Assembly: GCF_009467795.1 (NCBI RefSeq)
Contig: NZ_WIAX01000008.1
Span: 124,001 to 188,000, forward strand
Length of the DNA: 64,000 nt
Direction of reading: 5' to 3'
Origin: Nesterenkonia halophila
Lineage (GTDB): Bacteria; Actinomycetota; Actinomycetes; Actinomycetales; Micrococcaceae
Below are positions 43,058-55,026 of this stretch, piece by piece. The position numbers were made by a program, and so were the translations under genes. Below the pieces are notes generated by a model. That model was not told the DNA's origin. It saw only the letters and a list, made by a program, of their open reading frames with translations, and searched no databases. Every line of letters begins with the position of its first letter. The stretch's first letter is position 1.

Positions 43058-43516
43058 ATGGCCTCAGAGGACTCCATCCAGCCCGACGTCCACGCCGCCG
43101 GCCGGCCCCGACCCTTCACCCGGGCGCGGGCGCGCCCGGTCACGGTGTGGCTGCTCTTCCTCATCCTCTTCGTCCAGGGAACAGCCACGGCCTTCACCGC
43201 ACTCGGCTCGTTCTTCGGCTCCGATACCGCGGTGCTCGACGCCGCGGGCGTGGCGGTGATGCTGGTGGTCTACCTGCTCGCCGCCGTCGCGCTGGTGCTG
43301 CTGGGCTTCGGCCTCTTCCAGGGAGCGCCGGCGGCGCGCACTCCGGCGATGGTGATCGAGCTGCTGCTGGTGATCGTCTCGGTGAGCTATCTGGCCCAGG
43401 GGGTGCTCGTCGTCGGGCTGCTGCTGATGATCCCGGCCGCCGCCGCACTGGTGCTGGGCTACGTCGGACCCACCCAGCGCTGGATGGAGGCGGGCCGCCG
43501 CGACCGGCGGCGCTGA
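43058..43516 (+). CDS. Small four-helix membrane protein
   Basis: A 152-residue integral membrane protein of unknown function. Four hydrophobic helices are apparent (VTVWLLFLILFVQGTATAF; AAGVAVMLVVYLLAAVAL; MVIELLLVIVSVSYLAQGV; VVGLLLMIPAAAALVLGYV). The ends are charged and cytoplasmic. No motif is recognised. It lies upstream of the two-component system, separated by 103 bp containing the putative regulator box. Confidence 0.7.
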   Translation: MASEDSIQPDVHAAGRPRPFTRARARPVTVWLLFLILFVQGTATAFTALGSFFGSDTAVLDAAGVAVMLVVYLLAAVALVLLGFGLFQGAPAARTPAMVIELLLVIVSVSYLAQGVLVVGLLLMIPAAAALVLGYVGPTQRWMEAGRRDRRR

Positions 43517-43557: not shown

Positions 43558-43573
43558 ATGAAGGAATTCTCAT
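43558..43573. promoter_or_regulatory. Inverted ATGAA/CTCAT box upstream of the two-component system
   Basis: ATGAA (43558-43562) and CTCAT (43569-43573) begin 11 bp apart in inverted orientation, about 50-60 bp upstream of the sensor kinase ATG. The same half-sites occur in phased arrays at 46433 and 54956, which suggests autoregulation by the adjacent response regulator (inference). Confidence 0.4.
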
Positions 43574-43619
43574 GCGCCGCAGGGCCTGACAGTGCGTCGG
43601 CGGTGACAGACTGGTGGCC

Positions 43620-45182
43620 ATGGAACGCCTCGCCGACTCGTCCGCCGACCCGGCGAGCGGCCGCCGTCGACGACTGCTCGGTCCGCTGCTCGACCGGCTG
43701 CTCAGCGTGCGGGCGCGCATCCTCGCCGCCGTGGTCGGGCTCGCCGCCCTGGCCCTGGCGGCGGCCGGCACCACCGCCTTCGTGATCCAGCAGGTCCAGG
43801 TCGAGCAGCGCATCGACGCCGAGCTGGAGGCCGACGCCGAGCAGTTCCGCGTGCTGCACGAGGTGGGCATCGATCCGAGCACCGGCGAGGACTTCTCCTC
43901 GCCGACGGATCTGGTGCGCACCGCCATGCAGCGGATCATCCCCACGCGCCACGAGGACGTCGTCGGGATGGTCGACGGTCAGGTCGCCTTCACCTCGCCG
44001 GTGACCCCGATGGACATGGAGCACGACGCCGAGCTGGTCGAGGCGCTCTCCGGTCCGACGACGGCGGAGCGGGCGAGCCTCTCGACGATCACGACCGAGC
44101 AGACCACCTATCGCGTCGCCGTCGTGCCGGTCCATCCGGAGGGCGACGAGGAGGGCGGCGTCGCGGCCTTCGCGATGGCCCACGACATCGCCGCGGAGAA
44201 GGGGGTCTTCGCCGAGGGCTTCGTGACCTACGGGATCGTCGCCGCGCTGTCGCTGGTCGTCGTCGCGGTCGTCGGCTCGGTGATCGCCGGCCGGCTGCTG
44301 CGTCCGGTCGGGGTGCTGGCCTCCTCGGCCCGGCGGATCGGCCGGGAGGACCTCTCCGAGCGGATCCCGGTGACCGGCAGCGACGACCTCGCCGAGATGA
44401 CCCGCTCGGTCAACGAGATGCTCGATCGACTCGAGGATTCGGTGCGCGCCCAGGACCGGCTCATCCACGACGTCTCCCACGAGCTGCGCACTCCGCTGAC
44501 CATCCTGCGCGGGCATCTGGAGGTGCTCGACGTCGGCGATCCCGAGGACGTGACCGCCACGCGGCGGCTGACCCTGGACGAGATGCAGCGGATGAACCGC
44601 GTGATCGACGACCTGACCACGCTGGCGCAGGCCGGTCACCCGGAGTTCGTCCACCCCGTCCCCGCCGACGTCGGCCGGCTCACCGACGAGGTCTATGACA
44701 AGGCCGTCGCGCTGGGGGAGCAGCGATGGGTGGTCGACGCCCGCGCTGAGGGCGAGGTGTCGCTGGACCGCGAGCGGATCACCCAGGCCTGGCTGCAGCT
44801 GGCGGCCAACGCTGCGAAGTTCTCCCCGCCCGGCGCCGAGGTCCGCCTGGGCTCGGAGCTCGTCGGCGGTGAGCTGCGACTCACCGTCCGCGACCAGGGC
44901 GCCGGCATCGCCGAGGAGGACCGGGAGCGCATCTTCGAACGGTTCGGCCGCGCCGACGCGTCCACGCCGGGCTCGGGCCTGGGCCTGCCCATCGTCCGGG
45001 AGATCTCGCGCGCTCATCGCGGCCGGGTCGAGGTCGACTCCGAGCTCGGCGTCGGCACCATCGTCACCGTCGTCCTGCCGACGGAGGCTCCGCGGCGTCC
45101 GGAGCCCGGAGCGGCGCGGTCCCGGGCCGAGGGCGCGACCGACGATGGGCATGACCACCACGACAGAGAGGCAGATCGATGA
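43620..45182 (+). CDS. Membrane sensor histidine kinase
   Basis: A 520-residue sensor kinase: TM1 about 33-56, an extracytoplasmic sensor of about 145 residues, TM2 about 202-226, HAMP, HisKA with H287 in HDVSHELRTPLTI, and HATPase_c with RDQGAGI and GSGLGLPIVREI. It belongs to the large EnvZ/CutS-like class and no orthologue symbol can be given. Its stop overlaps the response regulator start by 4 nt. The operon ends facing the minus-strand glycosyltransferase cluster. Confidence 0.9.
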   Translation: MERLADSSADPASGRRRRLLGPLLDRLLSVRARILAAVVGLAALALAAAGTTAFVIQQVQVEQRIDAELEADAEQFRVLHEVGIDPSTGEDFSSPTDLVRTAMQRIIPTRHEDVVGMVDGQVAFTSPVTPMDMEHDAELVEALSGPTTAERASLSTITTEQTTYRVAVVPVHPEGDEEGGVAAFAMAHDIAAEKGVFAEGFVTYGIVAALSLVVVAVVGSVIAGRLLRPVGVLASSARRIGREDLSERIPVTGSDDLAEMTRSVNEMLDRLEDSVRAQDRLIHDVSHELRTPLTILRGHLEVLDVGDPEDVTATRRLTLDEMQRMNRVIDDLTTLAQAGHPEFVHPVPADVGRLTDEVYDKAVALGEQRWVVDARAEGEVSLDRERITQAWLQLAANAAKFSPPGAEVRLGSELVGGELRLTVRDQGAGIAEEDRERIFERFGRADASTPGSGLGLPIVREISRAHRGRVEVDSELGVGTIVTVVLPTEAPRRPEPGAARSRAEGATDDGHDHHDREADR

Positions 45183-45838
45183 CCCGGATCCTGATCGTCG
45201 AGGACGAGGACCTGATCGCGTCGTTCGTGGAGAAGGGGCTGCGCGCCGCCGGCTACACGGTGGTCCGCGGCGCCACCGCCCGCGAGGGCTACGAGCTGGC
45301 GATGAACAATGCGGTGGACTTGGCGGTCCTGGACCTGCGGCTGCCCGACGCCGACGGGTTGGATCTGCTCTCCCGCCTGCGCGGGGACGGCTTCCGGGCG
45401 CCGGTGGTCATCCTCACAGCGCGCAGCACGCCGGCCGACACGGTGGTGGGGCTGGAGTCGGGGGCCGACGACTACATGGCGAAGCCGTTCAGCATCGACG
45501 AGCTGCTCGCCCGGATCCGGCTGCGCCTGCGCGGCACCACGGGCGAGGAGCCCAGCACGCTCTCCGCCGGCCGGCTGACGCTGGATCTGCACGCCCGGCG
45601 CATCGCCGTCGGCGACGCCGAGCATGAGCTCTCCTCCCGCGAATTCGCGCTGGCCGAGACCTTCATGCGGCATCCGGGGCAGGTGCTCTCCCGCCAGCAG
45701 CTCCTGGAGCTGGTCTGGGGATACACCTTCGACCCCGGGTCCAATCTGGTCGACGTCTACGTCCGCTACCTCCGCGGCAAAGTCGGCGCCGCGGCGATCA
45801 CCACGGTGCGCGGCGTGGGCTACCGGCTGGAGGCCTGA
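45179..45838 (+). CDS. OmpR-family response regulator
   Basis: A 219-residue partner of the preceding kinase. D52 in AVLDLRLPDAD is the phospho-acceptor and the lysine is in YMAKPFSI. The C-terminal winged helix has ELVWGYTFDPGSNLVDVYVRYLRGKV, with the recognition helix at its end. OmpR-class regulators bind direct repeats phased by about 10-11 bp, which fits the ATGAG arrays found around this locus. Confidence 0.93.
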   Translation: MTRILIVEDEDLIASFVEKGLRAAGYTVVRGATAREGYELAMNNAVDLAVLDLRLPDADGLDLLSRLRGDGFRAPVVILTARSTPADTVVGLESGADDYMAKPFSIDELLARIRLRLRGTTGEEPSTLSAGRLTLDLHARRIAVGDAEHELSSREFALAETFMRHPGQVLSRQQLLELVWGYTFDPGSNLVDVYVRYLRGKVGAAAITTVRGVGYRLEA

Positions 45839-45873
45839 GGGGCGGCGCAGTCGGCGGCCGCGAGGGGTCCGGC

Positions 45874-46326
45874 TCAGTCATCGTCCTCGTCGTCCTCATC
45901 GTCATCGTCGTCCCAGTCGTCATCGTCCCCGTCGTCGTCCACCGTCGTCGGCGGCGCGGGGTCCACTGTGCTGGGCGTGGTCCAGGACCCGTCGCTGCTG
46001 CTTCCGCCGGAGCCACCGCCGTCCTTTCCGCCGGTCGTCCCGTCGTCGTCCGGGGAGGGCGTCGGCGAGGCCGCGGGGGAGGGCGTCGCCGTCTCGGTCG
46101 GCGACGGGGAGGACGCGTCGGAGGAGGGCTCGGCGGATGACGCGGCGGAGGACGTGGCGGAGGACGCCGACGGCGTGCTCGGCCGGGCGGTCTCGGCGCC
46201 GACCTCCACGGCCGGGCCCAGATCGCGGCCGCCGTCGTCGCCGGCGAGAGCGGCGAACGCCGCGGCACCGCCGACGGCGATGATGCTCAGCGCGCCGGCG
46301 ACGGTCCAGGTGCTCTGTCGACCCAT
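45874..46326 (-). CDS. Small membrane-anchored protein with Ser/Pro-rich and poly-Asp tail
   Basis: A 150-residue protein with an N-terminal uncleaved signal anchor (about 8-28, AGALSIIAVGGAAAFAALAG). It has an extracytoplasmic Ser/Pro/Thr-rich stretch, a Gly/Ser-rich stretch, and ends in almost pure Asp/Glu (DDDD, DEDD). No fold is expected. It may bind cations or cell-wall material; similar acidic proteins accompany envelope two-component systems, but I know no function. ATG at 46326 has AGGAAGG upstream. Three 11-bp-phased ATGAR boxes lie 107-135 bp upstream. Confidence 0.7.
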   Translation of the reverse strand: MGRQSTWTVAGALSIIAVGGAAAFAALAGDDGGRDLGPAVEVGAETARPSTPSASSATSSAASSAEPSSDASSPSPTETATPSPAASPTPSPDDDGTTGGKDGGGSGGSSSDGSWTTPSTVDPAPPTTVDDDGDDDDWDDDDDEDDEDDD

Positions 46327-46432
46327 GGGGGCTGGTCCTTCCTCTCCGCCGAGGACGGGGGTCCTCGGCCATTCTCCCCGACGGTCGGCGACGATCCGTC
46401 GGGATGATGTGCCTCCATCCTCTCCGGTGCGC

Positions 46433-46470
46433 ATGAACACTCGATGAGGCGACGATGAGAGAGCTCTCAC
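46433..46470. promoter_or_regulatory. Three ATGAR boxes phased at 11 bp, plus an inverted CTCAC
   Basis: ATGAA, ATGAG and ATGAG begin at 46433, 46444 and 46455, exactly 11 bp apart. CTCAC (46466-46470) follows in inverted orientation. The array sits upstream of the small acidic membrane protein gene, and closely resembles one arm of the array at 54956-55026. Confidence 0.5.
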
Positions 46471-47636
46471 TCCCGCCGGACGCCGTCGAGGAGCACCGAG
46501 TCGACGGAGCTGTCGACAGAACCGGAGACGGCGGCGCGCAGTGCGGCCGCGACCTCGGTGTGCCGGGGGCGCACGGCGTAGACGCAGCCCAGTCGCAGCA
46601 GCGCGGCCAGCTCGTAGGTCGCCAGCGCCTCCTCCGGCACGCCGCGCCGCGCGGCGGCGTCGGTCACCGTCGCCGCGACGGTGCGGCTCTGCGCGGGGGC
46701 CCAGATCCCCTGGCGCCGACGCAGCGTCGCGTGGGCGCGCAGGTTGCCCAGATCCAGGGCCGGGTCGGCGAGACAGGCGGTGTCGGCGTCCAGCAGCCCG
46801 GGCGCGGGGCCGCCGTCCTCGCCCTCGTCACCGTCGTCCTCGTCCCGCTCGCCGTCAGCGACGGCGACCAGCAGCTGCTTGTCGTGCAGGTCCCGATGGG
46901 CGGGGGCGAGCGGGCGGTCCGGCAGCCGCCGCAGCCGTCCGGCGAGCAGCTCGGCGGCCGCGCGGGTGCGTTCGACGTCGGCGATCCAGCAGGCGACGCG
47001 ATCGACCCAGCCGGTCAGCACCGCGGCCTCGGCGGCGGCGTCGTGGACGGGCGCCGCCGGATCGGCGGGAGCCGAGGAGGCCGTGATCCAGGCGGAGCAG
47101 ACCGTCTCCCAGGCCCGCCGCCAGCGCCGCGGCGAGAACGGCGTCGGATCGTGCAGGCCGATGCCCGGCAGCGCGGCGAAGGTCACCGTCGAGGCGTCGT
47201 GGTCCAGCACGGCAGGGGTGCGGAACGGCCCGTCGAAGGCCGCCGCCCGCTCGATCCCGCGGAGGATGCCCGCGGCGCGGCCCCGCCTGACGACCTTGAC
47301 GAATCGATCGTCGAGGCGGACCACCGCCCGGCGTCCCGGCCGGTGGGAGACGACCTCGCCGAGGTCGGCCGGCCGGGCCAGGGCCGCGAGCTTCGGGTCG
47401 CGGCCGGGGGGCAGCAGCTCGAGGCCGTCGGCGCCGAGGAAGCCGGCCCGCCGGGCGCCGCCGTCGTCGAGCTCGACGGCCAGGCGCGCGCCGTCGGCGG
47501 CGGGCCAGGCCCGGGTGACGGCCAGGCGCCGGCCCTCGACGAGGAGCGCGGCCGGCGGGAGGTCCGGCACGGCCTGCAATGCTGTGCTCGGCGGCGCCGC
47601 AGCAGGGGGAGTCGCAGCTGGGGGAATCATCGTCAT
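46467..47636 (-). CDS. Kinase-fold phosphotransferase (APH-like), terminal gene of the glycosyltransferase operon
   Basis: A 389-residue protein with the aminoglycoside/choline-kinase fold. The catalytic loop is HRDLHDKQ, where Asp is the base and Gln replaces the usual Asn Mg-ligand. The second metal motif is LLDADTACLADPALDLGN. N-lobe strands include AVVRLDDRFVKVVRRG. Its ATG overlaps the preceding gene's stop by 4 nt, and a GGAGAGG ribosome site sits just upstream; a second ATG two codons on is possible. The operon context suggests it phosphorylates a sugar or other small acceptor rather than an antibiotic (inference). Confidence 0.75.
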   Translation of the reverse strand: MTMIPPAATPPAAAPPSTALQAVPDLPPAALLVEGRRLAVTRAWPAADGARLAVELDDGGARRAGFLGADGLELLPPGRDPKLAALARPADLGEVVSHRPGRRAVVRLDDRFVKVVRRGRAAGILRGIERAAAFDGPFRTPAVLDHDASTVTFAALPGIGLHDPTPFSPRRWRRAWETVCSAWITASSAPADPAAPVHDAAAEAAVLTGWVDRVACWIADVERTRAAAELLAGRLRRLPDRPLAPAHRDLHDKQLLVAVADGERDEDDGDEGEDGGPAPGLLDADTACLADPALDLGNLRAHATLRRRQGIWAPAQSRTVAATVTDAAARRGVPEEALATYELAALLRLGCVYAVRPRHTEVAAALRAAVSGSVDSSVDSVLLDGVRRE

Positions 47637-48949
47637 CCTCTCCGGGTCCGGGGCGGTCGCCCCCTGTCGAGACGTCCTGGGGCGGTCGCGGCGGAGTCCT
47701 CCTCCGCGCGGTCGGCCGCTCGTCGGGCATGGTCCAGCGTCCGGCGCATCGCCTGCGGCCAGTCGCGGTCGCGGCGGCGGAACGGCTCCCCGGCGGCCTC
47801 CAGGTGGGCGTGGGCCTCCCAGCCGGCCAGCCGCGCCGGATCCACCGGAGCCTCGGCGGCGTAGCCGTCCAGGAAGGCCTTCGCCAGATGCGGCAGGGTG
47901 AGCCGGCGGCAGGCGGCGAGCCAGGAGCCCGCGTCGCGCATCGGGTCGCCGAGCCCGCAGCGGTCGAGGTCGACGAGCCGGATCTCCGGGGCCGCGGCGC
48001 CCGCGGGCTCGCCGATCAGCAGCTGGTCGGGCGAGAGATCGCCGTGCAGCTCCGCCACGCCGTCGGCCGCGGAGCCGTCGGAGGGCAGCGTGGCCGCCAG
48101 GCGCCCGGCGAGGTCCCGCGCCTCCGCGGCGACCCAGGGGGCCGGCACCGCGAGCGACGCGGCGGCGGCCTGCGGCCCGGGCTCCAGGCGGCGGAGGCCC
48201 CGTGCGCCGTCGGCGGGCGCAGTCCGGAGGGTGCGACGATGCAGCCGTCCGATCGCCGTCCCGGCGGCCGCGGCGGCGGAGACGACGGTGCGGGGGCTCG
48301 CCGCCGCGGACGGGGCCAGCAGGTCGCCTGTTCCCCACAGCGGCGAGGCCACGGCGGTCCCGCGCCGTCCCACGATCTGGTGATCGAGGACGGGCACGCC
48401 CGCAGCCCGCCAGCGGCCGGCGGCCGCGACCAGGTGATCCTGGCTCCGGGCGGCGACCCGGACCACGGTCGCCTGCTCGGCGTCGGTCCCGACGACGCGG
48501 CGGCGCGGGTTGTAGCGCAGGATCTGCGCGACGAGTCCGGGCATCCGCTCGCGGGCGGCGTCGAGTTCGCGGGCGAGCTCCGGGTCGTCGAGGATCTCCC
48601 CGCTGAGCAGCCGGAGGCCGTCGAGCCGTCGGTCCAGGACGGTTCCGCCGCGGCGGGAGGCGCGGCGGTGCGCCGCGGCGACCTTGTCCGCGTCGTCGGT
48701 CAGCAGGACCCACGCGTGACGGCCGTGGTCGTCCACCACGGAGGCGACCAGCGACCGCCCCGGCTTCAGGCGCAGCCGACGGACCTCCACCGACCGTCCC
48801 AGCACCTCGGAGAGGGCCGAGGCGTCCAGGACCGTCGCCGCGCCCGGCAGCCGGATCGCCGCGGCGGCGACGGCATCGGCCTCGGTGCGCGTCGGCGCGG
48901 GCACCCCGGCGGGTCGCGGCGCGTGCGGCGGCCGGGTCGGGCCGGTCAT
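47633..48949 (-). CDS. Kinase-fold phosphotransferase (APH-like), second copy
   Basis: A 438-residue APH-type protein. The catalytic loop is HGDLSPDQLLI and the metal motif is LVDLDRCGLGDPMRDAGSWL. The Asn-to-Gln change in the catalytic loop is shared with the next gene, as is the DxD metal motif, so both belong to one subfamily, though the proteins differ strongly elsewhere. It overlaps both neighbours by 4 nt. The substrate is unknown. Confidence 0.75.
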   Translation of the reverse strand: MTGPTRPPHAPRPAGVPAPTRTEADAVAAAAIRLPGAATVLDASALSEVLGRSVEVRRLRLKPGRSLVASVVDDHGRHAWVLLTDDADKVAAAHRRASRRGGTVLDRRLDGLRLLSGEILDDPELARELDAARERMPGLVAQILRYNPRRRVVGTDAEQATVVRVAARSQDHLVAAAGRWRAAGVPVLDHQIVGRRGTAVASPLWGTGDLLAPSAAASPRTVVSAAAAAGTAIGRLHRRTLRTAPADGARGLRRLEPGPQAAAASLAVPAPWVAAEARDLAGRLAATLPSDGSAADGVAELHGDLSPDQLLIGEPAGAAAPEIRLVDLDRCGLGDPMRDAGSWLAACRRLTLPHLAKAFLDGYAAEAPVDPARLAGWEAHAHLEAAGEPFRRRDRDWPQAMRRTLDHARRAADRAEEDSAATAPGRLDRGRPPRTRRG

Positions 48950-50850
48950 CGGTCGGCTCCGGTCACGGCCGGTCGCGCGACGGGCCCCGTGTCCGGCCGG
49001 TCGGCCCCCGCCGGAGACGACGCCGAGGCGGTCTCGGCCGCGCGCTGCTGGGAGGCGGCCCAGCAGGAGAGCCGCGAGCCGGGATCGGCCAGCAGCTCCT
49101 CCGGCGCGCCGTCCTCGAGGATCCGCCCGCCGTCGAGCCAGACCACCCGGTCGAGCCCGGCGATCATGCTCAGGTCGTGGGTGATGGCGATCGTGGTGCG
49201 GCCGGCGGTGAGCTCCCGCAGCGAGGACTCCACCACCTCGCGGGAGGCGGGGTCCAGGCCGGTGGTCGGCTCGTCGAGCAGCACGATCGGCGCATCGCGC
49301 ACCAGCGCCCGGGCCAGCGCGATCCGCTGCCGCTGGCCGCCGGAGAGCGTGTCGCCGCGGGCGCCCAGCTCGGTGTCGTAGCCCTCGGGCAGCCGGGAGA
49401 TGAATTCGTGGGCCCCGGCGCGGTGCGCGGCGGCGACGACCTCCTCGTCAGCGGCCTCGCGGCGCCCGTGACGGATGTTCTCCCGCACGCTGCCGGTGAA
49501 CAGCACCGACTCCTGCAGCAGCACCGCGACGGAGGAGCGCAGCTCGGCGCGGGTCACGTTGCGGGTGGAGATCCCGTCGACCATCACCGACCCGGCGTCG
49601 GGGTCGGCCAGGCGCAGCAGATAGCCCGCCAGCGTCGACTTGCCCGCGCCGGAGGGGCCCAGCAGGCCCACGCGCTGGCCGGCCGGCACGTGCAGCGACA
49701 GCTCCTCGAAGAGCCGGGCGCCGCGGTGGTCGTCGGCGGTGATCCGCCAGAAGCTCACCTCTCCGGAGGGCCGGCCCAGGGACAGCGGGCGGCGCGGATC
49801 GCGGATCTCGACCTCCTCGGCCAGCAGATCGGCGATGCGCTCGCCGGAGGCCGCCGCCCGGGCGATGCGGCCGGTGTACTTGGCCATGTCGCGCAGCGGC
49901 TTCATCGCGATCTTCAGATACATCAGGAACAGCACCATGTCGCCGGGAGTCATCGTGCCCACCAGCACCTGCCAGCCGCCGACGCCGAGCACCACGGCTG
50001 TGGCCAGACCCACCAGCAGGTCGGTGGAGCGCTCCAGCCGGGCGGCCAGCCGGCGGGCCCGGATGCCGGCCTTCAGCGCCTCGGCGTTGCCGGCGGCGAA
50101 ACCGGAGGCGACGGTCTCCTCGAGCCCGTAGGACTGGACGACCCGGATGGCGCCGAGCGCCTCGGCGGCGTCGCCGACCAGCCGGCCCTCGCCCCGGCGG
50201 GTCGAGCGCGAGGCCGAGGAGATCTTCGGGCTCAGCAGCCGGCTGGCCAGCAGATAGCCGGAGCCGGCGGCGATCAGGATCAGCGCCAGCAGCGGGTTGA
50301 GCACGGTGACCACGACGAACAGGGCGACCAGCGTCAGCAGGTTGCCGACCAGCGGCAGCCCGGCGGTGACCGCGACCTCCTGCAGGCGGCCCATGTCGCC
50401 CACGAGCCGCTGCGAGGTGTCGCCGACCGAGGCGCGCGAGTGATACCGCAGGGACAGCGCCTGGATGTGCTCGAACACGCGGGTGCGCAGGCGCGTGGTG
50501 ACTTTCACCCCGGTCTGGGCGAAGGCGATCGTGGAGGCGTAGTTGCACAGCGCCCGGCCGCCGACGATCAGCGCCAGAGCGCAGGACCAGAAGACCAGGA
50601 CTCCGACGACTCCGCCGCCGGCGCCCGGCGCGCCCGTCACGTCGGCGCCCAGGGCGCTGGAGACGGCGTCGACGGCGATCTTCACCGGCCACGGCTCGAG
50701 GATGCGGAAGGCCACGTCGCCGAGCAGGGCGAGCAGTCCCAGCGTCACGGCGAGCTTGTGCTCCCTCAGGTGGGGCAGGATCATGCCCAGCGTCCGTCGC
50801 AGGGCACGACGGTGCTGGGTGCGGCTGCGCCGGGCGTCGCTGCGGCTCAT
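48946..50850 (-). CDS. ABC exporter half-transporter (TMD-NBD), MsbA/lipid-A-exporter class
   Basis: A 634-residue exporter. The N-terminal membrane domain has six helices (about 25-320). The nucleotide-binding domain has Walker A GPSGAGKST, signature LSGGQRQR, Walker B IVLLDEPT and the H-loop in AITHD. Half-transporters of this class dimerise and export lipids, glycolipids or peptides. ATG at 50850 overlaps the preceding glycosyltransferase stop by 4 nt, with AGGAGG about 10 nt upstream. In this operon it is the likely exporter of the glycoconjugate made by the three glycosyltransferases. Confidence 0.9.
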   Translation of the reverse strand: MSRSDARRSRTQHRRALRRTLGMILPHLREHKLAVTLGLLALLGDVAFRILEPWPVKIAVDAVSSALGADVTGAPGAGGGVVGVLVFWSCALALIVGGRALCNYASTIAFAQTGVKVTTRLRTRVFEHIQALSLRYHSRASVGDTSQRLVGDMGRLQEVAVTAGLPLVGNLLTLVALFVVVTVLNPLLALILIAAGSGYLLASRLLSPKISSASRSTRRGEGRLVGDAAEALGAIRVVQSYGLEETVASGFAAGNAEALKAGIRARRLAARLERSTDLLVGLATAVVLGVGGWQVLVGTMTPGDMVLFLMYLKIAMKPLRDMAKYTGRIARAAASGERIADLLAEEVEIRDPRRPLSLGRPSGEVSFWRITADDHRGARLFEELSLHVPAGQRVGLLGPSGAGKSTLAGYLLRLADPDAGSVMVDGISTRNVTRAELRSSVAVLLQESVLFTGSVRENIRHGRREAADEEVVAAAHRAGAHEFISRLPEGYDTELGARGDTLSGGQRQRIALARALVRDAPIVLLDEPTTGLDPASREVVESSLRELTAGRTTIAITHDLSMIAGLDRVVWLDGGRILEDGAPEELLADPGSRLSCWAASQQRAAETASASSPAGADRPDTGPVARPAVTGADR

Positions 50851-52133
50851 CGCGGCGCCACCTCCTGACGAGGCACGGCGTCGCCCCCGACGGCGGCCAG
50901 CACGTCCTGCGCGCGGCGCGCCCAGCTGTGCCGGGCGACGACGGCGCGGCGGCCGGCGGCGGCGAGGTCGTGCCGAAGGTCGGCGTCGGCGACGAGCCGG
51001 TCCAGGGCCGCGGCCAGCGCGTCGACGTCGCCGGCGGGCACCAGCAGTCCGCGGGGCGGTTCCGCGGAGCCGCCGGCGAGCAGCTCGGGCAGCTCGCCGA
51101 CGTCGGAGGCGACCACGGCGGCGCCGGCGGCCAGGTACTCGTAGACCTTCAGCGGGGAGAAGTAGTGCTCCTCCGGGGCGGCCGGCGCCGGGTACGGGGC
51201 GACGGCGACGTCCAGCGCCGCGACCGCCCGCGGCATCTGCTCCGGGGCGACCGCGCCGGTGAACTCCACCTGCGCAGCGATCCCCAGCCGGTCGGCGAGC
51301 TCGCCCAGCGCCGTGCGCCGGGGCCCGGTGCCGATGATCTGCAGCCGCGGCCGGGTCCTCTCCTCCGCGGCGGCGACCGCCTGCGTGCGGGCGAAGGCCT
51401 CGAGCAGCAGCTCGGTGCCGTGCCAGGACTTCAGCGTGCCGACGAACCCGATCGTCGGGGCCTCGCCGCTCGCCGGGCTCGTCGGGCGTCGGGCGGGACG
51501 GAAACGGTCGACGTCGACCCCGTTGGGCACGAGGCGGATCGGGGAGCCGGCCGCGGCGTCGCTCCGGGCCTCGGCGCCTGCGGCCTCGCGCATCTCGCCG
51601 ACCCATCGGGCCACCGGGGCCGAGACGCAGGTGACCAGGTCGGCGGCGGCCAGCGTCTCGCCGGCGGCCTGCTCGGCGGTCGCGGCGTCGTGCAGCCGGC
51701 GGTGGGTGCTCTGCTCCGCGAGCAGCGGCGCATTGACCTCGACGACGAGGCGGCTCGCCGGGGCGCGGCGGACTGCGCGGGCGCCGGCGCGGGAGAACAG
51801 CGAGAAGCGCTCGTAGAGCAGATCCGGACCGTGCGGGCCGTGGGCCGCGGCCTGTTCGGCCATCCGCTCCGCAGTGCGGACCACCGCCTGTTCGCGTCCG
51901 GCGGCGCCCTTGACGCCCTCGACCGGGAGCACGACGGTCTCCAGGTCCGCCAGATCGGCGGGCACGGCGGCGGTGGAGGGGTCCTGCGCGTCGTCGCCGA
52001 GCTTGGTGCAGAAGACGGTGACCTCGTGGCCGAGGGCGCGGAAGGACCGGATCATCTCCTGGGCGTGGACGGCGGCGCCCTTGGTGCCGAAGATCCCGAT
52101 GCCGGGGTCGGCCAGCAGATAGGCGATCCTCAT
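50847..52133 (-). CDS. Glycosyltransferase, GT-B fold, family 4 type
   Basis: A 428-residue cytoplasmic glycosyltransferase. The N-terminal Rossmann domain has GIFGTKGAAVHAQEMIRSF. The C-terminal donor-binding domain has GFVGTLKSWHGTELLLEAF, EFTGAV, and the EX7E-type motif in APEEHYFSPLKVYEYLAAG. This is a GT4 retaining transferase; donor and acceptor are unknown. Start and stop each overlap neighbours by 4 nt. Confidence 0.88.
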   Translation of the reverse strand: MRIAYLLADPGIGIFGTKGAAVHAQEMIRSFRALGHEVTVFCTKLGDDAQDPSTAAVPADLADLETVVLPVEGVKGAAGREQAVVRTAERMAEQAAAHGPHGPDLLYERFSLFSRAGARAVRRAPASRLVVEVNAPLLAEQSTHRRLHDAATAEQAAGETLAAADLVTCVSAPVARWVGEMREAAGAEARSDAAAGSPIRLVPNGVDVDRFRPARRPTSPASGEAPTIGFVGTLKSWHGTELLLEAFARTQAVAAAEERTRPRLQIIGTGPRRTALGELADRLGIAAQVEFTGAVAPEQMPRAVAALDVAVAPYPAPAAPEEHYFSPLKVYEYLAAGAAVVASDVGELPELLAGGSAEPPRGLLVPAGDVDALAAALDRLVADADLRHDLAAAGRRAVVARHSWARRAQDVLAAVGGDAVPRQEVAPR

Positions 52134-53575
52134 GCCGGCACCTCCGTTCCGCGTCGGGCGGTGCCGACGAGGGCGGCGGCGGGTGCGGCCGGGGTCGACT
52201 CGGTGACGACCGTCGTGTCGGACGACTCGAGCTCCGCGGCCGGGGCGTCGACGAGGGCGCGCAGCCGCAGCGCCTGGCCGGTCGAGTCGAAGCGCTCCTC
52301 GACCAGCCGACGGGCCGATTCGAGCAGCTCGCGGTGCTCGGCCGCCGGGGCCGCCGTCGCGGCCACGATGGCCTCGACCAGCGCGTCGACGTCGCCGGAG
52401 GGCACCAGCCAGCCGGTCCGACCGGGGCGGATCACCTCGGCGACGGCGGCCACGTCGGCGGCCACGCAGCGGATCCCCCGGGCCATGGCCTCCAGCAGCA
52501 CTGTGGGAAGCCCGTCGACGTTGCCGTCGTGGCCGACGACGAACGGGGCGACGAAGGCGTCGTGGTCGTCGAAGAGCATGCTGATCTCCCGCTGGGTCCG
52601 CGGACCCAGCAGTCGGACATGCTCGGTCAATCCGGCCGCGGCGATCTGCTCGCGCAGGCCCTCGGCCAGCGGCCCGTCGCCGGCGATGTCGGCCTCCGCC
52701 CGGAGCCCGCGGGCGCGCAGCCGGGCGACCGCCTCGACCAGCAGGCCGAAGCCCTTCTTCTCCACCAGGCGCCCGACGCCGAGCAGCCGGATCGGCCCGT
52801 CGTCGGCGTCGCCGGTGTGGTCGGCGCCGCGGCCTCCGTCGGCCTCGTCGTCCGCGTCCCGGCGGTGCACCCGCGGGCGGAACGGGAAGCGCTCGAGCTC
52901 CAGGCCGTTGTGCACCAGATGCAGTCGGCGGGTCGCCGCGGGGAAGCGGCGGCGCAGGTCGTCCAGGTTGTGCGCCGAGATGGTCACGGCGTGGTGGGCC
53001 TCGGCGAGCTTCGTCTCCAGCGCCCGCTGGTCGACGTCGTCGTGATGGATGTCCTTGGCGTGGGCGGTGAAGGAGTAGGGCACTCCGGTGATCCGGCTCG
53101 CCAGTCGGGCGACGGTGGTCGCCATCGAGGCGAAGTGCGCGTGGAGGTGGTCGACGTCGTGATCGCGGGCGGCGGCGGCCAGGTCGACCGCCTGCTGGGC
53201 GTCGTCGTGGCCGTGGGCGAGCAGCTCGGGCATCTCGGCGGAGAGGCCGGCGGCGATCTGCGGGTCCTCGGCGGCCGCGGCCAGCCGCTCCCACAGCCGA
53301 CCGCCCGAGGTCGCCCGCGGCAGATGCACCACCGGGGCCTCGACGCGGGCCAGCTCAGGATGGAACCGGGCGTCGGCGGTGGGGCGCAGCGAGAAGATCA
53401 CCACGCGCTCGCCGGCGGCCTCGCGGGCGAGGATCTCGGAGACCACGAAGGTCTCGGAGAAGCGCGGGTACATCTTCAGCACATAGCCGATGGTCCGCCG
53501 GCGCGCGGCGCCGGGCGTCGAAGGCGCGGGGCTCGTCGGCCCCGTCCCAGTCTCCGTCTCACTCTCAGCGGACAT
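52130..53575 (-). CDS. Glycosyltransferase, GT-B fold, family 4 type (colanic-acid-transferase-like)
   Basis: A 481-residue glycosyltransferase. It begins after a disordered tail with TIGYVLKMYPRFSETFVVSE, typical of WcaL/AmsK-type transferases of exopolysaccharide pathways. HLHAHFASMATTVARLA and PYSFTAHAKDIH follow. The donor domain has LLGVGRLVEKKGFGLLVEAV and LPTVLLEAMARG. It overlaps the upstream gene by 11 nt and the downstream gene by 4 nt. This family link is the best hint that the operon makes an extracellular polysaccharide or glycolipid. Confidence 0.88.
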   Translation of the reverse strand: MSAESETETGTGPTSPAPSTPGAARRRTIGYVLKMYPRFSETFVVSEILAREAAGERVVIFSLRPTADARFHPELARVEAPVVHLPRATSGGRLWERLAAAAEDPQIAAGLSAEMPELLAHGHDDAQQAVDLAAAARDHDVDHLHAHFASMATTVARLASRITGVPYSFTAHAKDIHHDDVDQRALETKLAEAHHAVTISAHNLDDLRRRFPAATRRLHLVHNGLELERFPFRPRVHRRDADDEADGGRGADHTGDADDGPIRLLGVGRLVEKKGFGLLVEAVARLRARGLRAEADIAGDGPLAEGLREQIAAAGLTEHVRLLGPRTQREISMLFDDHDAFVAPFVVGHDGNVDGLPTVLLEAMARGIRCVAADVAAVAEVIRPGRTGWLVPSGDVDALVEAIVAATAAPAAEHRELLESARRLVEERFDSTGQALRLRALVDAPAAELESSDTTVVTESTPAAPAAALVGTARRGTEVPA

Positions 53576-54932
53576 GGTCGAGGATCCTCTCCGTGCGGTG
53601 GTCGGGGGCGGATGCGGTCTCGCCGCGGCCGGGGTGGGCGGCGTGCGGGGCGGTCTGCACGGTCTGTGTGGTCGGCGTCGTCGTCGCCGGCGTCGTCGGG
53701 CGCAGCTGGCGGGCGGCGATCCCGGGCAGACGGGCGAGCCCGTCGCGGTCGATGTGCTCGCGCGTCGTCCGGCGGGAGACGGCTTCGGCGAGCCAGTCGC
53801 CGAGTCGCTGGGGAGTCGCCGCGGCGGCCTCGAGCATGTCGGCGGCTCCGGAGGCGGCCAGCGCGGCGGCGCGTCGGGGCTGTTCGGCCCGGCGCGTGCT
53901 GCGCGGCACGAACAGTGCCGGCGTGGTGGAGTCGAGGATCTCGGCGGCGGAGTTGTAGCCGGCCATGGAGATCACCGCCCGCGCGTCGCGGATCAGCTGC
54001 GGCAGGTGGGGGCTGCGGCGCTGCACGCGGACCCGGCCGACCGGTCCCGGGCGTCGTCGCGCCTCTGCGGCGGCGCGCACCACTGCGTCGTGGTCCTGCC
54101 GGGACATCTGCGGTCCGGTGATGATCAGATGCCGGTGGCCGGCCGGCACCGGGGCCGCCGCGGCGGCCGCGGCGAGGCGGCCGCCGTCGGCCCCGCCGCC
54201 GACGGTGGTGAGCACGGAGGGGACGGCGGACGCTGCGAGCACGTCGGCTCCGTCCCCGTCGTCCTCGTCGACCGCGTCCTCGTGGGCGCCGTCCTCGTCG
54301 GCGGGCCCCGAGCAGGCGTCGGCCGGGCGCCCGCGTGCGAGATACCCGGTGAACTCCGTGCGGTCGGCCAGCGTGCGCGGGACCTCGCCGGCGGCGATCG
54401 GATCGTGGACCCGCGGGTCGCCGTAGATCCAGACGGCGTCGTAGGAGTCGGCGACGGCTCCGGCGCCGACGGCCGACCATTCGCGGGATGCCGCCTCGGG
54501 GGAGTCGAGGACCTCGCGCAGTCCGAGCACGCAGCGGGTCCCGCGCAGTCTCAGCTGGTCGAGGGAGGGGGCGAGCTCGCCGTCGATGCCGAACGGGTGC
54601 CGGTCCACGATGAACAGGTCCGGCGCCAGCGACTCCAGCGCCGCGGCGACGGCGCTGCGGCGCAGGCGGGAGAGTCGGGCGGAGCTCATCTCGAGGTGCC
54701 GAGCGGCGTAGCCCTCGACCGCGGGGGAGAACCCCGGCAGCACCATCCAGTCCCAGCCCGGCGGCAGAGAGTCGGCCGCGGCGCCCGGGTGGCCGGCGAT
54801 GAGCAGCCCGCGGACCCGGTGCCCGGTGATCCTCGGCAGGCCGGCGGCCAGCGCATGGGCCACCGCTCGGTTCCTGCGGGCATGCCCCAGGCCGACGGAG
54901 TCGTGGGAGTAGAGCGCAACGGTGATCGTCAT
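53565..54932 (-). CDS. MurG-like (GT28-type) glycosyltransferase, first gene of the operon
   Basis: A 455-residue protein beginning VALYSHDSVGLGHARRNRAV, the N-terminal pattern of MurG/MGDG-synthase-like GT-B enzymes with the GxGHxxR acceptor loop. The C-terminal part has a UDP-sugar-site-like region (AVISMAGYNSAAEIL; TPALFVPRSTRRAEQPRRAAAL). An acidic linker lies at about 200-225. ATG at 54932 follows GGTGGGA. It opens the six-gene operon. The 114-bp gap upstream holds the six-box operator array. Confidence 0.85.
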   Translation of the reverse strand: MTITVALYSHDSVGLGHARRNRAVAHALAAGLPRITGHRVRGLLIAGHPGAAADSLPPGWDWMVLPGFSPAVEGYAARHLEMSSARLSRLRRSAVAAALESLAPDLFIVDRHPFGIDGELAPSLDQLRLRGTRCVLGLREVLDSPEAASREWSAVGAGAVADSYDAVWIYGDPRVHDPIAAGEVPRTLADRTEFTGYLARGRPADACSGPADEDGAHEDAVDEDDGDGADVLAASAVPSVLTTVGGGADGGRLAAAAAAAPVPAGHRHLIITGPQMSRQDHDAVVRAAAEARRRPGPVGRVRVQRRSPHLPQLIRDARAVISMAGYNSAAEILDSTTPALFVPRSTRRAEQPRRAAALAASGAADMLEAAAATPQRLGDWLAEAVSRRTTREHIDRDGLARLPGIAARQLRPTTPATTTPTTQTVQTAPHAAHPGRGETASAPDHRTERILDHVR

Positions 54933-54955
54933 GCATCCCACCGTCGTGCGCCGCC

Positions 54956-55026
54956 ATGAAGCAACGGTGAGACGCGGATGAGAATCCGCGGGCGGGATTC
55001 TCATCCTGTTCTCATGGACCTCTCAT
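54956..55026. promoter_or_regulatory. Symmetric six-box operator array (ATGAG x3 / CTCAT x3), all at 11-bp phasing
   Basis: On the + strand ATGAA (54956), GTGAG (54967) and ATGAG (54978) are 11 bp apart. After the centre, CTCAT occurs at 55000, 55011 and 55022, also exactly 11 bp apart. The inner boxes form a perfect inverted repeat, GATGAGAATCC/GGATTCTCATC (54977-54987 and 54995-55005). The array is the only upstream region of the glycosyltransferase operon. It fits cooperative binding of an OmpR-type response regulator, probably the one at 45179 (inference). Confidence 0.65.

Follow-up and report, generated by a model that had tools for sequence, protein, structure and literature searches.

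The DNA analysed here is a 64,000-nucleotide stretch of the Nesterenkonia halophila genome (contig NZ_WIAX01000008.1, positions 124,001 to 188,000; hereafter the window). It raises the question of whether a set of short, evenly phased boxes joins a two-component system, a small acidic membrane protein and a glycosyltransferase operon into one regulon. An earlier note on this DNA had proposed that the response regulator encoded at 45179-45838 controls the locus and itself through ATGAR/CTCAT half-sites placed 11 bp apart. Conservation of the boxes at the same promoters in relatives, their co-occurrence with the kinase, their association with similar regulators and their fixed distance to the -10 element support this proposal. 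We consider it likely that the regulator directly activates its own kinase-regulator operon, the acidic gene and a glycosyltransferase/ABC-export operon by way of an 11-bp ATGAG grid. As a description of the locus the earlier proposal stands; in scope it was too narrow, since many families of the order share a regulon built on these boxes. The genes and boxes on which the argument turns are as follows.

43620..45182, plus strand: histidine kinase gene (HAMP, HisKA and HATPase by family profiles)
45179..45838, plus strand: OmpR/PhoB-type response regulator gene (Response_reg and Trans_reg_C), the presumed box binder
45874..46326, minus strand: gene of a small acidic membrane protein (a membrane segment at the N-terminus, the motif DLGPAVEV and a tail rich in Asp)
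53565..54932, minus strand: family 28-type glycosyltransferase gene, which opens the predicted operon and encodes a family 28 C-terminal domain
43558..43573, plus strand: ATGAA-N6-CTCAT, an inverted pair of half-sites at step 11 in front of the kinase gene
46433..46470, no strand assigned: array in front of the acidic gene, with ATGAA, ATGAG, ATGAG and a weak inverted fourth half-site (CTCAC) at steps 11-11-11
54956..55026, no strand assigned: six half-sites on one 11-bp grid in front of the glycosyltransferase operon, three facing three across a slot (54989) that is empty

The half-sites lie where the earlier note had placed them, except that position 54967 reads GTGAG and not ATGAR, and all three sites are indeed outside predicted genes (called with a simple codon-usage script). 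Two elements had been missed. The spacing from 54978 to 55000 is 22 bp, which puts both operon triplets on a common grid, and a weak inverted fourth half-site, CTCAC (46466-46470), lies one step past 46455 and touches the stop codon of the gene that ends at 46467.

Could such boxes be chance matches, or by-products of start-codon or coding context? The genome sequence analysed comprises 2.19 Mb and is 65.52% complete, and its counts are lower bounds. ATGAR-N6-ATGAR occurs in it at six places, four of them in this locus. With the spacing relaxed (ATGARN{0,28}ATGAR) there are 162 places over 29 spacings, or about 5.6 for each spacing. The six at spacing 11 are therefore no excess by themselves, and to this extent the counts agree with chance. 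The two pairs outside the locus, one inside an rpsJ-like gene and one between an icd-like gene and a dehydrogenase (assigned by eye), are probably chance occurrences. The excess lies in the clustering of pairs, not in their genome-wide number: the triple RTGAR-N6-RTGAR-N6-ATGAG is found at three places in the genome, every one in this locus, and it reappears at matching promoters of relatives.

Phasing across genomes argues against chance more directly. In 52 loci with a related kinase (344,606 bases, including four same-genus loci with a divergent kinase), half-site pairs at steps 11, 22 and 33 number 50, 22 and 22, and stand out among the 40 steps counted, the remaining steps from 5 to 44 giving 0-10 each; no divergent pair occurs at step 11 in these loci. 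When the count is restricted to 900 bp ahead of the kinase match, 25 pairs fall at step 11 and 0-4 at other steps. Counted by locus, an 11-bp pair is present in 28 of 40, and other steps from 6 to 21 in 0-5. Congener genomes hold the triple array at 45 places, against two for the reversed pattern, and across the order 93 of 297 genomes contain the palindromic core ATGAGANNNNTCTCAT, compared with a single genome for its reversed control. Given the confinement of the triple, the phasing peaks and the rarity of the reversed palindrome, we reject an origin by chance or coding context, to which we assign a negligible probability. Two aspects of sampling bear on the half-site data: the half-site matrix was built from RTGAR-matching sites, leaving only its flanks and A/G ratios informative, and many loci numbered after L044 were chosen for the box pattern, so their half-site counts are no evidence.

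The comparison with relatives, which had been proposed as a check, bears out the idea of a shared operator: the three sites recur at equivalent promoters in Nesterenkonia relatives. Six named Nesterenkonia and Garicola records, with kinases 66-70% identical to that of the window, all have the inverted pair upstream of the kinase gene and an array downstream of the regulator gene. This array consists of four half-sites (GTGAG, GTGAR, ATGAG and CTCAT) in L038, L039, L041 and L042, and of three in L037 and L040. A small-protein gene lies behind it in five of the six, with its membrane-segment motif 82-115 bp away; a search for this motif behind the array of L041 did not find it. L038, L041 and L042 have the operon array in double form, and L037 has it in a weaker one; none was found in L039 and L040, where the sequence read may end short of the operon. 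Nine aligned Nesterenkonia and Garicola kinase promoters, that of the window included, keep the inverted pair, and their invariant columns lie within this pair and the -10 region, with none between. In eight aligned operon promoters, most invariant columns fall within the half-sites, the A and T of the -10 element, and the start codon. The first glycosyltransferase of the operon is present in 36 of 147 genomes searched, 35 of which also have the kinase. Its upstream region was checked at 30 loci, 28 with a readable start (L099 and L100 have none); a strict 11-bp pair lies within 330 bp upstream at 23 of these 28, and a relaxed pair at all 28.

Do the boxes belong to the neighboring regulator? 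The kinase was found in 76 of the 147 genomes (E 1e-40 or better). Among congeners the triple array is present in 19 of 21 kinase-positive and one of nine kinase-negative genomes (Fisher 6e-5, related species inflating such values by overstating independence). Across the 76 genomes common to the kinase and palindrome searches, tallied by hand, ATGAGANNNNTCTCAT occurs in 19 of 35 kinase-positive and none of 41 kinase-negative genomes. The sites also track the regulator itself: they accompany 26 of 31 loci whose regulator is at least 50% identical over at least 190 residues, and two of nine otherwise. In many other genera the kinase-regulator operon begins with a gene for a small membrane protein, and the array stands in front of that gene. 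Binding of the boxes by some other regulator of the cell would fit the arrays in G003 and G008, as the best kinase match there is only 42-44% identical and no gene for a related kinase or regulator lies within about 5 kb of the PepSY-type targets in these genomes. Yet many families have the sites in front of this two-component operon, and the sites are mostly missing where there is no kinase or where the regulator is dissimilar; we therefore regard control by another regulator as quite improbable.

Beside the inflated Fisher values, several observations weigh against control by the neighboring regulator. Five of the 31 similar-regulator loci have no pair in the stretch read (L105, L108, L129, L131 and L135), although the genome of L105 carries sites just outside that stretch. 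The kinase-positive congeners G002 and G019 lack the triple, both having an ATGAG pair before the glycosyltransferase gene, and G016 has two identical triples yet no kinase match. The perfect palindrome is missing from 16 of the 35 kinase-positive genomes, including that of the window, and among the OmpR-type regulators of these genomes the site-regulator comparison covered the one of each locus. We also observed that the G016 triples (L054 and L070) are apparently part of a repeated segment. Separately, four loci (L114, L121, L122 and L124) combine a kinase about 45% identical with a regulator only 46-47% identical whose DNA-binding domain differs; they have no 11-bp pair, and a partner exchange is possible there.

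The position of the boxes relative to the promoter bears on how a bound regulator would act. Three putative -10 hexamers were placed in the window:

43607..43612, plus strand: putative -10 hexamer CAGACT of the kinase promoter, with A and T invariant in the nine-row alignment (positions 35 and 39)
46417..46422, minus strand: putative -10 hexamer GAGGAT of the acidic-gene promoter, whose A and T lie at +12 and +16 relative to the proximal half-site
54940..54945, minus strand: putative -10 hexamer of the operon promoter, with A at +12 and T at +16, both invariant in the eight aligned promoters

Across loci, the promoter-nearest half-site is in the common orientation in 130 of 134 flanks. Removal of near-duplicates and kinase promoters from these flanks left 89 distinct promoters, and 46 of them have A-N3-T at offset 12, compared with 0-6 at each of the other 43 offsets; the -10 offset played no part in choosing the loci counted for it, and loci from the genus-wide search that did use a -10 pattern are not among them. 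This pattern fits the A and last T of a -10 hexamer that starts at the 11th base past the half-site. The gene-proximal half-site would thus stand 10 bp upstream of the -10 element, as the pho box likewise does, with the boxes covering the place of the -35. The operon and acidic-gene promoters of the window match offset 12, and its kinase promoter matches the longer spacing of its relatives, in which the putative -10 lies about two turns further off. In the 89 promoters the half-sites one and two steps upstream of the proximal one are conserved as well, and TTG occurs at only 0-2 promoters per position in the gap between half-sites where a -35 would fall. Taken together, this arrangement suggests that the boxes stand in place of a -35 element and that activation is direct.

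The same regulator might instead bind the operon and the acidic gene only to repress them, covering their promoters until a signal releases it. The operon array occupies the region bound by RNA polymerase, from 24 to 95 bp ahead of the start codon, and a repressor could also sit at a fixed distance from the -10, which tells against reading that distance as a mark of activation. A repressor, however, needs neither a proximal half-site at a set helical position 10 bp from the -10 nor the single orientation found in nearly all flanks, and the absence of a -35-like TTG also speaks against repression. The regulator probably binds these boxes. Activation is likelier than repression because of the fixed -10 distance, the lack of a -35-like TTG and the likeness to BqsR, the regulator of the BqsRS system (CarRS is a synonym); repression appears unlikely. 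Both the kinase ATG (43620) and the operon ATG (54932) begin eight bases past the final T of their -10 hexamers, a spacing that makes leaderless transcripts probable for the kinase and glycosyltransferase genes.

The regulator is of the OmpR/PhoB type. It combines a receiver with a winged-helix C-terminal domain (Response_reg and Trans_reg_C, both above cut-off), and the half-sites at its presumed target promoters lie one helical turn apart or at multiples of it (steps 11, 22 and 33), as in the OmpR/PhoB family. Its nearest solved structures by sequence are mycobacterial PrrA and BasR/PmrA, and the best NCBIfam model is PmrA (NF007928), at 180.5 bits against a cut-off of 330. As exact families, PmrA, MtrA, CseB, PhoB and CzcR/CopR were set aside, all falling below NCBIfam cut-offs. 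The sensor part of the kinase was modelled from seven sequences with a mean pLDDT of 71.8; a fold search with this model gave one PDB match below E 0.001 (a WalK-YycH model) and weaker CACHE and WalK matches, a hint that the extracytoplasmic domain may be CACHE/PAS-like.

Based on these observations, we propose that the kinase would read an envelope condition through its extracytoplasmic sensor domain, and that the phosphorylated regulator would bind ATGAG half-sites, direct or inverted, on the 11-bp grid. Binding would switch on three promoters, those of the kinase-regulator operon, the acidic gene and the glycosyltransferase/ABC-export operon, with the regulator probably recruiting RNA polymerase in lieu of a -35 element. 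The small protein is probably a feedback partner of this system or one of its surface outputs.

What else might the boxes control in relatives? In some genera the gene behind an array that adjoins the two-component genes is a DUF4956 gene (L106, L112, L113, L137 and L141), with a VTC-domain gene after it; Pfam supports the assignment at L112, L113 and L141, with an adjoining VTC gene in all three, and the other DUF4956 genes were assigned by similarity. DUF4956/VTC-type genes are reported beside Pel polysaccharide clusters in one study (PMC7112168). In five congeners (G002, G003, G008, G019 and G028) the array precedes a family that looks lipoprotein-like by eye, its members 35-65% identical to that of G002, and Pfam confirmed a PepSY domain in both members tested (G002 and G028). 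A separate PepSY protein lies behind an array in G330 (L170). Such PepSY or PepSY-like target genes are situated away from two-component genes (L221, L224, L208, L220, L232 and L170), and the six regions read around PepSY-type targets contain no related kinase or regulator within about 5 kb.

The small proteins encoded behind arrays include 23 with acidic tails, the L170 PepSY protein among them, and nine in which, under a strict rule, each third residue is Ser or Thr; 15 others comprise several with partial triplet-like repeats and several multi-pass proteins. In the five congener orthologs read, the acidic tail of the window protein is replaced by one rich in Ser, Trp and Pro. Tails thus vary within the genus, and the membrane segment and DLG motif are constant (window protein; L037-L040 and L042). 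Among the tails we observed Asp-rich ones, some Trp-spaced, and Ser-every-third repeats, often ending in SADSGD or SADSAD (including L024, L030, L034, L119, L126, L128 and L166-L168). A broader and more speculative proposal, which we put forward tentatively, is that one grammar, an 11-bp ATGAG grid ending 10 bp before the -10, marks out an envelope regulon that is not yet described and is shared by many families of the order. A small exported protein would always accompany it, with an outer part exchanged freely among an Asp-rich tail, Ser-every-third repeats and PepSY domains. This outer part would serve as an interchangeable input or feedback element for a kinase that reads charge, cations or wall state, and the outputs of the regulon would be surface polymers.

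Several described systems resemble parts of this one. BqsR of Pseudomonas aeruginosa is an activator that acts on TTAAG-N6-TTAAG, and one native promoter has four pentamers, the last overlapping the -35 (PMC4682146). The window shares this geometry of pentamer-N6-pentamer with the nearest copy at the -35 region; its pentamer, however, is ATGAG, and inverted pairs on the same 11-bp grid are common. PepSY proteins are encoded beside BqsRS, and in DbfQRS of Vibrio cholerae the small secreted DbfQ binds the sensor domain of the kinase (both PMC12714742). Here too a small exported protein is encoded with the kinase and regulator, yet DbfQ has a PepSY domain, whereas the window protein consists of a membrane segment and an Asp tail without a PepSY match. 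In this locus no PepSY protein is encoded beside the two-component genes, and PepSY domains are confined to targets in relatives. In Microbacterium, according to a review, the two-component system UipRS adjoins UipA, which crosses the membrane once and has PepSY domains in tandem and a metal-binding face of negative charge (PMC8963506); the likeness to the system here is drawn from this description. CutRS of Streptomyces is also an actinobacterial two-component system that acts on the envelope. We set CutR aside because the conserved operator here is ATGAG-based and the CutR motif is TAWATAAA (PMC12802291), a comparison made with the published motif, for which the window was not scanned.

In the open-access literature we found no description of this operator or system, subscription papers being mostly outside the search. 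It is of an ordinary kind, an OmpR-type regulon; what is new, as far as that literature shows, is the operator, its breadth and the companion proteins. A large actinobacterial group has a two-component system without a named function or, in the literature searched, a described operator, and an operator with fixed promoter geometry allows its targets to be listed in many genomes. Through the regulon a single signal would connect a putative glycan-export operon with DUF4956-VTC genes, with PepSY lipoproteins and with exported proteins of low complexity. As a Gram-positive parallel to BqsRS and DbfQRS, it would allow the study of how kinase activity is set by small exported proteins.

The remaining genes of the locus, in a window of 73% GC, are these.

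52130..53575, minus strand: glycosyltransferase, GT4-like
50847..52133, minus strand: second GT4-like glycosyltransferase
48946..50850, minus strand: ABC exporter with fused membrane and ATPase domains, MsbA-like, below family cut-offs
47633..48949, minus strand: operon gene without a significant family match, possibly phosphotransferase-like by eye
46467..47570, minus strand: last operon gene, without a family match, possibly phosphotransferase-like by eye
43058..43516, plus strand: small multi-pass membrane protein gene

The six minus-strand genes from 54932 to 46467 look like one operon; family searches assigned no pathway to its product. The acidic protein gene is convergent with the kinase-regulator pair, and its product has no Pfam or NCBIfam match in profile searches. 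Likely relatives of the 43058..43516 gene (similarity by eye) share the small-protein array in opposite transcription at L037, L040, L145 and L149.

Spread beyond the order was sampled in 246 genomes drawn from the phylum, few of them of the same class; the palindrome plus -10, a stricter pattern than the palindrome searched for in the order, is present in four. Within the genus, two half-sites plus the -10 pattern give 40 listed places against two for reversed controls, many of them candidates beyond the known sites. As a final observation, G268, G100 and G147 (L173, L174 and L176) have three copies of ATGAGAGTTCTCTCAT within about 1.7-2.5 kb, the third in G100 being slightly different, and one copy in this set adjoins an adenosine deaminase-like gene.

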